From a virus: a stretch of DNA of 20,236 nt. The translations under genes were made by a program, and so were the position numbers. Positions within the stretch are counted from its first letter, which is position 1, and each line of letters starts with the position of its first letter. The DNA lies in the IMG/VR virus record IMGVR_UViG_3300036770_006489, positions 1 to 20,236 of that record; one strand, written 5' to 3'. The notes beneath the pieces were generated by a model that was given only the letters and a program-made list of their open reading frames with translations, did not search any database and was not told where the DNA came from. Below are positions 15,311-17,126 of the stretch, piece by piece.

Positions 15311-16399
15311 ATGGATTTCAAATCATTGATTCAAAAAATAGATTCGCTGGACACACCTATCGAAACGGTGAAGGCTCCAACACTTGCTGCACCGATTCGC
15401 TTAGACGAAGATACAGAACTTCGTGTTTTAGCTGGTGTAACTGCTTTAACTGAGTCTGTGATCATGGAAAAGTCTGTGAGCAAGGCTCAGCAGAAAGCCG
15501 CTGGTGCAGCACTAGCAGCTAAAAGAGGCGATGCTCCTAAAAGTGAACTCAAGGGTGCTTCGAAAGAAATGATGAGCATGAGCACTAAAGAACTTGAAAA
15601 GTTCGCAGGAACCAAGCACAAAGGCCTACCAGAAAAGAAAACAGACGAGTCTGTTGAAGAAGCTTTTGATTCTGATGCAAAAGTAGGGGACAAGAAAAAA
15701 ACACAACACGGTACTTTGACCAAAACTGCTACTGGTGTAAAACACGAACGTTCTTATAAAGGCGACGACAGCGACAAAGATGATGCACCAAAAGCTAAAA
15801 AAGCTAAAAAGGAATCTGTAGAATTAGACGACGATTTTTCAGATAAATTCCAGGCCATGGTAGAAGCCAAGAAGAAAGAAAAAGACGATAAGAAAAAGAA
15901 AATGGAAGAAGCTAAAAAGTCCAAGATGACCAAAAAAGATGAAAAGATGGATGAAGCGGCCAAACCAGATTTCTTAGACGTCGACAAAGACGGCAATAAG
16001 AAAGAGCCGATGAAGAAAGCCGCTAAAGAAGCAGATAAAGGCGAAGATAAAAAAGAAACAAAGGGTCTTTCTGCCAAGCAGAAAAAACTACCTCCTGGAC
16101 TACAGAAAGCCATTGCTAAAAAGAAAGGTACAGCCGAGGGCGTAGAGACTAACAAAAAGGTAGTGGCAGAAAGTGTAGAACCAAAAATGTCATTCCGTGA
16201 CATGATGAAGCTAGTTGTAGAAAGTGGCGGGCAACAACAGATCGATCCACTAGACAAGGAATTATTTGCTTGGGCTACTCGCGTAGCTGAAAACAAATTA
16301 GGAGAAGGTCTAAAGGCCGAAGTATATGCAGGTCTTGTATACGAGCGCATGGGCGGCGTATTTGAAATGTATGATGTTTTAAGCGAAGATCAAAAATAA
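15311..16399 (+). CDS. Lys/Ala/Glu-rich phage protein, putative head-core or internal protein
   Basis: A 362-residue protein with extreme composition. The N-terminus is helical (MDFKSLIQKIDSLDTPIET), followed by Ala-rich helices. Residues ~90-285 are a long Lys/Asp/Glu-rich disordered or coiled region (EAKKKEKDDKKKKMEEAKKS) containing a calcium-loop-like FLDVDKDGNKKE. A folded C-terminal domain (SFRDMMKLVVESGG, then ELFAWATRVAENKLGEG and VYERMGGVFEMYDVLSE) ends the protein. The composition resembles T4 prohead core proteins, which are degraded or processed by the prohead protease; this is inference. It is the last gene before a strong terminator and may be the distal gene of the late unit that begins near 8800. 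Confidence 0.82.
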   Translation: MDFKSLIQKIDSLDTPIETVKAPTLAAPIRLDEDTELRVLAGVTALTESVIMEKSVSKAQQKAAGAALAAKRGDAPKSELKGASKEMMSMSTKELEKFAGTKHKGLPEKKTDESVEEAFDSDAKVGDKKKTQHGTLTKTATGVKHERSYKGDDSDKDDAPKAKKAKKESVELDDDFSDKFQAMVEAKKKEKDDKKKKMEEAKKSKMTKKDEKMDEAAKPDFLDVDKDGNKKEPMKKAAKEADKGEDKKETKGLSAKQKKLPPGLQKAIAKKKGTAEGVETNKKVVAESVEPKMSFRDMMKLVVESGGQQQIDPLDKELFAWATRVAENKLGEGLKAEVYAGLVYERMGGVFEMYDVLSEDQK

Positions 16400-16418
16400 T
16401 TATTATTTTTTGGTAAAC

Positions 16419-16450
16419 AAAAGCCAGTCATCCATTGACTGGCTTTTTTT
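16419..16450 (+). terminator. Strong Rho-independent terminator
   Basis: A perfect 12-bp stem (left arm 16419-16430, right arm 16436-16447, loop TCCAT) is followed by a run of T to 16450. It ends the 8.4-16.4 kb gene run, 19 bases after the stop codon of the Lys-rich gene. Confidence 0.93.
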
Positions 16451-16463
16451 ATGACTTTATAAT
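16435..16463 (+). promoter_or_regulatory. Sigma70-type early promoter with its -35 box inside the terminator
   Basis: TTGACT (16435-16440) and TATAAT (16458-16463) are separated by exactly 17 bases, a near-consensus host sigma70 promoter. Expected +1 is near 16470. The -35 box covers the last loop base and the first five bases of the terminator's right arm. It should drive dsbA, the membrane protein and gene 43 early in infection. Confidence 0.82.
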
Positions 16464-16491
16464 ATATAACACATTACCTGGAGAATTAATA

Positions 16492-16758
16492 ATGGCTAAA
16501 ATGTACGGTCCGGAAGAAAAGGCTAAACTAGAGCGTTTAATTACAGAAGGCAGCAATGTTCTTCGTGAAGTAGAAGATCTTCAAGAGGGTCTGAAAGAAA
16601 CTGTTAAAGCAGTTGCCGAGGAACTTCAAGTCAAGCCCAGTATCATCAATAAAGCGATTAGAATAGCACACAAGGATAATTGGAAATCACACGAAGAAGA
16701 GTGGGACGAAATCGAAATGATCTTAGGTGTCACTAAACGTCTACCAGAAAAAGATTAA
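16492..16758 (+). CDS. dsbA: DsbA-like double-stranded DNA-binding protein (late transcription accessory)
   Basis: An 88-residue helical protein matching T4 DsbA (89 residues), which binds double-stranded DNA and affects late transcription; it is unrelated to the bacterial disulfide oxidoreductase of the same name. The conserved central block is present: LERLITEGSNVLREVEDLQE, then GLKETVKAVAEELQVKPSII, then NKAIRIAHKDNW. The ATG at 16492 follows a GGAG (16480-16483) and lies downstream of the predicted +1, which excludes the TTG at 16435. In T4 this gene belongs to late control; here a strong early-type promoter precedes it. Its stop overlaps the next start (TAATG). Confidence 0.88.
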   Translation: MAKMYGPEEKAKLERLITEGSNVLREVEDLQEGLKETVKAVAEELQVKPSIINKAIRIAHKDNWKSHEEEWDEIEMILGVTKRLPEKD

Positions 16759-17063
16759 TGAACCAAATAACAAATGCCGTTGTCGATATCTACAAATGGG
16801 CAGAACGTGACTACAAAGAATGGCCTTTTAGGTTTTGTATTGAAGTTCTGGCTTGGGCCATTAGTATTGGTTGTAGTATTGCAATGGCTCTCACTGTTCC
16901 TACCCCTCCCTTACTCATTCTATATCCCATTTGGATTGCTGGGTGTGCTATGTATGGTTGGGCTAGTTTCACTCGTGGGAGCTTTGGCATGCTTGCTAAT
17001 TACATTCTGCTTGTCGCTATTGACACTGTGGGCTTGGTCAGAATGATAAGTAATCTAGCATAG
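16758..17063 (+). CDS. Small polytopic membrane protein of unknown function
   Basis: A 101-residue protein with an amphipathic N-terminus (AERDYKEWPFRF) and three predicted membrane helices at about 27-47, 51-71 and 77-96. Helix two contains YPIWIAGCAMYGWASF, and SFGMLANYILLVAID marks helix three. I recall similar proteins next to the DNA polymerase gene in marine T4-like phages, but I cannot name a function. It is coupled to dsbA by TAATG. Its position in the early replication operon argues against a holin role and for a host-envelope or replication-anchoring role (speculative). Confidence 0.8.
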   Translation: MNQITNAVVDIYKWAERDYKEWPFRFCIEVLAWAISIGCSIAMALTVPTPPLLILYPIWIAGCAMYGWASFTRGSFGMLANYILLVAIDTVGLVRMISNLA

Positions 17064-17070
17064 ATGGTCG

Positions 17071-17121
17071 GCGGGCCATAAACCGCTTGTTGGTATTTGT
17101 GAGCCATAAATCACATAGGAG
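17071..17121 (+). promoter_or_regulatory. Candidate gp43 translational operator: two hairpins with identical 8-nt loops, plus ribosome-binding site
   Basis: In the 63-base leader of gene 43, hairpin 1 pairs GCGG (17071-17074) with CCGC (17083-17086), and a G-U pair can extend it. Hairpin 2 pairs TGTGA (17098-17102) with TCACA (17111-17115). The stems are unrelated in sequence, yet both enclose the same 8-nt loop GCCATAAA (17075-17082 and 17103-17110). The ribosome-binding site AGGAG (17117-17121) starts one base after hairpin 2. T4 gp43 is known to repress its own translation by binding a hairpin with a 5-bp stem and an 8-nt loop (AAUAACUC) next to its ribosome-binding site. The same architecture is seen here with a different loop, and doubled. 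Confidence 0.78.
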
Positions 17122-17126
17122 AAAAA

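Follow-up and report, generated by a model that had tools for sequence, protein, structure and literature searches.

Known and proposed autogenous control of phage replication genes

The DNA polymerases (gp43) of phages T4 and RB69 repress their own mRNA, and no pseudoknot has been reported for their gene 43 operators (PMC3014915). In T4, gp32 recognises a pseudoknot within the mRNA that encodes it, and the gene 32 operator comprises a pseudoknot of about 28 nucleotides (nt) together with a less structured stretch of more than 40 nt that has UUAAA/UAAA repeats (PMC535899). Here, the leader of gene 43 was analysed in the IMG/VR virus record IMGVR_UViG_3300036770_006489, of which the whole stretch of 20,236 nt (positions 1 to 20,236) is referred to as the window. 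Two similar RNA units, the upstream unit 1 and the ribosome-proximal unit 2, precede the start codon. From the comparison of related leaders, each unit is predicted to fold into an H-type pseudoknot that consists of an RGY triplet (R, purine; Y, pyrimidine), a first loop (L1), the 5' strand of stem 2 (S2, 3–6 base pairs (bp)), an RCY triplet, the segment NNAAN and the 3' strand of S2, with RGY and RCY pairing as stem 1 (S1). The loop lengths (L1, 1–4 nt; L2, 0 nt; L3, the 5-nt NNAAN) would be compatible with both stems being formed together.

Like the T4 and RB69 operator, this element occupies the gene 43 leader near the ribosome-binding site, ahead of a homologous polymerase, and has a short stem with 8 nt between its strands. 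However, T4 and RB69-like operators are single hairpins with the loop AATAACTC, whereas the window leader holds two copies with an unrelated loop sequence, in which the first three loop bases pair upstream. The simple hairpin with an unpaired 8-nt loop and a UAAC core (UAAA in RB49) that characterises the T4 type was not found in the window leader, where the loop reads RCYNNAAN. Since the architecture departs from the definition of the T4 operator, the element is placed as a putative variant of replication-gene autocontrol, outside the T4 hairpin family. A previous interpretation of this locus from its own letters (the sequence-only reading) had proposed a T4-type operator with a new loop specificity; this was not upheld, as part of the loop is complementary to the upstream triplet in 224 of 224 leaders and the 8-nt word is not conserved.

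With the gene 32 operator of T4 and RB69 the element would share autogenous control and a leader pseudoknot at a phage replication gene, but gene and protein are different, and the arrangement of a pseudoknot followed by UUAAA/UAAA repeats over the gene 32 ribosome-binding site has no counterpart in the window leader, which is without such repeats. Small H-type pseudoknot riboswitches of the preQ1 type are compact, have an A-rich loop and adjoin the Shine-Dalgarno (SD) sequence, all of which they have in common with the window units. The window element differs from them in having no metabolic gene context and no match to Rfam covariance models anywhere in the leader, even at E values up to 5, and presumably also in strand order.

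Covariation of both stems

Leaders were collected by gp43 searches of IMG/VR, both from polymerases 83–88% identical to that of the window and from distant ones, mostly 62–67% identical, and 292 distinct gene 43 leaders were left once duplicates had been removed. Unit 2 was defined as a stem with an RCYNNAAN loop at most 48 nt from the start codon, with a fixed-distance rule for RGY, and is carried by 224 of the 292 leaders. The remaining 68 are mostly without a leader element, many since the start of the gene abuts the preceding gene, and a few hold a variant stem, such as L045, L068 and L069 with a 9-nt loop in which GGT/GCC is retained. Because the search pattern had preset both the RGY triplet and the loop classes R, C, Y and AA, independent evidence comes only from the purine–pyrimidine association in the first S1 pair, the occurrence of RGY in every one of these leaders, and S2 pairing.

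The RGY triplet is found 5–8 nt before the loop, complementary to its first three bases, in all 224 leaders. In unit 2, 153 of these leaders have G-C and 71 have A-U as the first S1 pair, crossed combinations do not occur, and pairing at this position drops to 78% once the partners are shuffled among leaders. The third pair is U.G, C-G or, where an A opens the loop, U-A. The gp43 tree shows four switches of the first pair, each with a change on both sides. The three inner pairs of S2 are likewise formed in 224 of 224 leaders by several pair types, and the presence of G.U (35 cells) together with the absence of A.C indicates that the + strand RNA is the folding strand. S1 and S2 thus both covary, giving the two interleaved stems with compensatory change that define an H-type pseudoknot, and the expectation of a conserved, covarying RNA element at gene 43 next to the SD sequence was borne out. 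The unpaired conserved core is small and consists of AA plus a purine; loop position 5 is a T in 116 of 224 leaders, so the UAAA seen in the window is not conserved. For the lineage of L116, S1 as GAG/CTC was considered and dropped for AGT/GCT, which is in register with all other leaders.

In the window itself, the twin hairpins with an identical 8-nt loop, GCCATAAA, are present as the sequence-only reading had described them. None of 200,000 composition shuffles of the 63-nt leader reproduced two 8-nt-loop hairpins sharing one loop, and elsewhere in the window neither a further copy of GCCATAAA nor a second pair of such hairpins was found. The GGT triplets at 17066–17068 and 17092–17094, which pair with the GCC of each loop, had been overlooked, and the second hairpin, thought to end one base before the ribosome-binding site, ends 2 nt before the GGAG core. 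Minimum-free-energy folding of the single window leader was ordinary (z = 0.42); since the folding energy of one sequence is uninformative here, the support for the element is comparative.

The upstream unit and differences between lineages

In the clade of the window, a second unit of the same kind lies upstream, 28–30 nt from loop to loop. Among the 75 leaders in which both units were parsed, only 2 have identical 8-nt loops, whereas GCC..AA is common to the two units in 74. The identity of the GCCATAAA loops in the window is therefore a coincidence over a real shared GCC..AA core, and the idea that this loop is a conserved word of protein specificity was rejected. Aligning the leaders, as had been suggested, revealed the covariation of the stems, but of the loop GCC and AA were kept and not the whole word. 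The proposed doubling of the operator holds for the clade of the window and partly for another clade, but not for the group as a whole.

Unit-1-type matches in relatives have a complementary S1 in 84 of 85 cases. Within the window clade, S1 of unit 1 is replaced by AGT/GCT in L020, and the S2 stem of unit 1 is swapped for GATCA/TGATC or TAATCA/TGATTA in relatives. In another, related lineage, unit 1 shows NGTC/GACN' around the stem, as AGTC/GACT, TGTC/GACA or GGTC/GACC, so that the N position pairs as A-U, U-A and G-C; one mismatch was seen (L412). In L145, L165, L173, L196 and their relatives, unit 1 is replaced by a different conserved hairpin, located 5' of unit 2 at a distance of about 30 nt. 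It has a covarying stem flanked by GAGTCG and ACGTTAC or by CGTAA and CATG. A pseudoknot was also considered for this hairpin (GAGTCGCTCACGTTACGAGC), but no consistent S1 was found and it was kept as a plain hairpin.

Position in the leader and gene specificity

In 223 leaders, the distance between the last base of S2 and the SD core is −4 to +6 nt, and in 52 of them the core is inside S2 or overlaps it; in the window, 11 nt including the SD sequence separate the end of unit 2 from the start codon. A motif like the late promoters of T4 was found at −95 to −58 in 127 of the 224 leaders, against 14.6 expected from shuffles, and clusters at −89 to −76 from the gene 43 start codon. From this position, the gene 43 mRNA probably starts just before unit 1. 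A late-type motif is unexpected before a replication gene, and gene 43 is expressed early and in the middle phase in T4. Many relatives (L001, L002, L182, L198 and others) start gene 43 with TTG and not with ATG.

A descriptor scan of four relatives of 270–321 kb gave one SD-linked match per genome, at gene 43, and in two relatives from the window clade (270 kb and 282 kb) the two leader units are the sole matches genome-wide. An exact-pattern scan of IMG/VR with two common stem types yielded at least 240 matches; among the 240 listed, 232 lie directly before gene 43 and 4 precede a small open reading frame (ORF), after which gene 43 follows; 3 are located at contig ends, and 1 is unrelated. 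The intervening ORF, found in L637, L763, L767 and L789, encodes 75 amino acids (aa) in L767 and 180 aa in L763, and in these four contigs the element may control an operon. The intervening ORFs of L637 and L789 each have a PC(D/E)DC motif near the N terminus.

Inspection by eye did not reveal the element in the cultivated relatives Phosso, Atu_ph07, Vibrio 2.275, CBB, SCTP-2 and MIJ3, nor in the leaders of T4, RB49-like, RB69-like, S-PM2, P-RSM6 and Vibrio D481 phages. A blastn search of the leader against isolate phages gave nothing beyond short matches at chance level, and a literature search, which covered few subscription papers, brought up no account of an element of this kind. Within the phage group, the contigs L792–L795 were binned in archaeal and bacterial metagenome-assembled genomes (Thermoplasmata, Euryarchaeota, Halobacteroidaceae and Bacteroidia), which is probably contamination.

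Candidate ligands and mode of action

The comparative data give good support to the view that the element is a cis-regulatory RNA dedicated to gene 43. Since gp43 of T4 and RB69 represses itself and the element was found at no gene other than gene 43, the likeliest candidate ligand is gp43, and by this analogy the element is probably, though by no means certainly, an autogenous translational operator; autoregulation by gp43 is also the simplest explanation for an element of gene 43. Free gp43, not engaged on DNA, would bind the pseudoknot and stabilise its weak 3-bp S1, with the A-rich NNAAN loop possibly sitting in the S1 minor groove. The stabilised pseudoknot, abutting the SD sequence, would block binding of the 30S subunit, and polymerase would thereby be made only as needed. 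The upstream copy might raise the affinity or sharpen the response, and repression may be cooperative or graded, as the sequence-only reading had suggested.

Several points weigh against an operator for gp43. Many relatives with 62–67% identical gp43 have no leader element, which is hence not essential to this polymerase family. In the four contigs with an interposed ORF, direct blocking of the SD sequence would hit the inserted ORF first. The second and third S1 pairs are not independent tests, their classes having been fixed by the search pattern, and the four switches, taken by themselves, are a small number of tree events (sign test, p = 0.125). Finally, all conserved features could serve the fold alone and are uninformative on the ligand. 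This last point, together with the location between the promoter-like motif and the SD sequence, would also suit a purely structural leader, i.e. a 5' stability element or a ribosome-standby structure without a regulator. Such a role is considered unlikely, because a general stability element would be expected before other genes of these large genomes as well, and stability alone would not readily account for the long retention of a pseudoknot stem of only 3 bp.

Binding by another phage or host protein, such as the phage single-strand binding protein or a ribosomal protein, finds a precedent in T4 gp32 and the pseudoknot in its own mRNA (PMC535899), but a regulator of other genes should have further targets, of which the two whole relatives have none, and searches for RegA were negative in four genomes, although the T4 positive control was detected; another protein is thus an improbable ligand. 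A small-molecule riboswitch of roughly the size of the preQ1 aptamers, sensing a nucleotide or a modified base and gating translation of the polymerase with a tandem arrangement that sharpens the response, would agree with a compact pseudoknot with an A-rich loop beside the SD sequence, present in tandem, and also with the lack of a matching Rfam family. It appears very unlikely given the restriction to a single gene that is neither metabolic nor a transporter gene, and the small unpaired conserved core. In addition to gp43 as the candidate ligand, it is tentatively suggested that the units form an undescribed family of tandem H-type pseudoknots, acting as a two-site switch of the replicative polymerase. 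This switch might sense free polymerase through the fold and not through a loop sequence, or, with lower probability, a nucleotide ligand.

Features of the window

The coordinates of gene 43 and its leader are summarised in Table 1. The gene 43 product matches phrog_262 (E 3.5e-199) and has Pfam DNA_pol_B and exo1 domains; the nearest solved structures are those of RB69 gp43 (best PDB entry 1clq, E 1.1e-64). Two genes 5' of gene 43, at 16471–16758, a small homologue of the DsbA-like transcriptional regulator is encoded (phrog_12534, phrog_639; Pfam PF11126 slightly below the cut-off), and the same gene context was seen in relatives. Sub-threshold Rfam matches on both strands at 16389–16459 (Yfr10, 32 bits against a cut-off of 43) are probably a hairpin or terminator after the ORF that ends at 16399.

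Table 1. Gene 43 and the elements of its leader in the window
Feature	Coordinates	Strand	Basis or remarks
Promoter-like motif GATAAGTA, T4-late type (compare TATAAATA)	17045..17052	+	Motif enrichment in relatives; putative promoter
Unit 1, S1 5' strand GGT	17066..17068	+	Complementary to loop bases 17075–17077
Unit 1, S2 stem GCGG/CCGC, loop GCCATAAA	17071..17086	+	Loop 17075–17082: GCC, S1 3' strand; ATAAA, L3
Unit 2, S1 5' strand GGT	17092..17094	+	Complementary to 17103–17105
Unit 2, S2 stem TGTGA/TCACA, loop GCCATAAA	17098..17115	+	Loop 17103–17110: GCC, S1 3' strand; ATAAA, L3
Shine-Dalgarno core GGAG	17118..17121	+	2 nt (TA) past the end of unit 2; gene 43 ATG at 17127
Gene 43, family B DNA polymerase, 888 aa	17127..19793	+	Homology searches

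Implications for T4-like phages

Autocontrol of gp43 is a textbook case and was the first target of systematic evolution of ligands by exponential enrichment (SELEX); to our knowledge, descriptions of it cover few phages and depict a simple hairpin. The occurrence of a covarying pseudoknot dedicated to gene 43 across a large group of uncultivated T4-like phages suggests a re-invention or remodelling of polymerase autocontrol on the basis of another RNA architecture. With sub-lineages that have none, one or two units, the evolution of the protein–RNA pair and the value of a second site would be directly testable.
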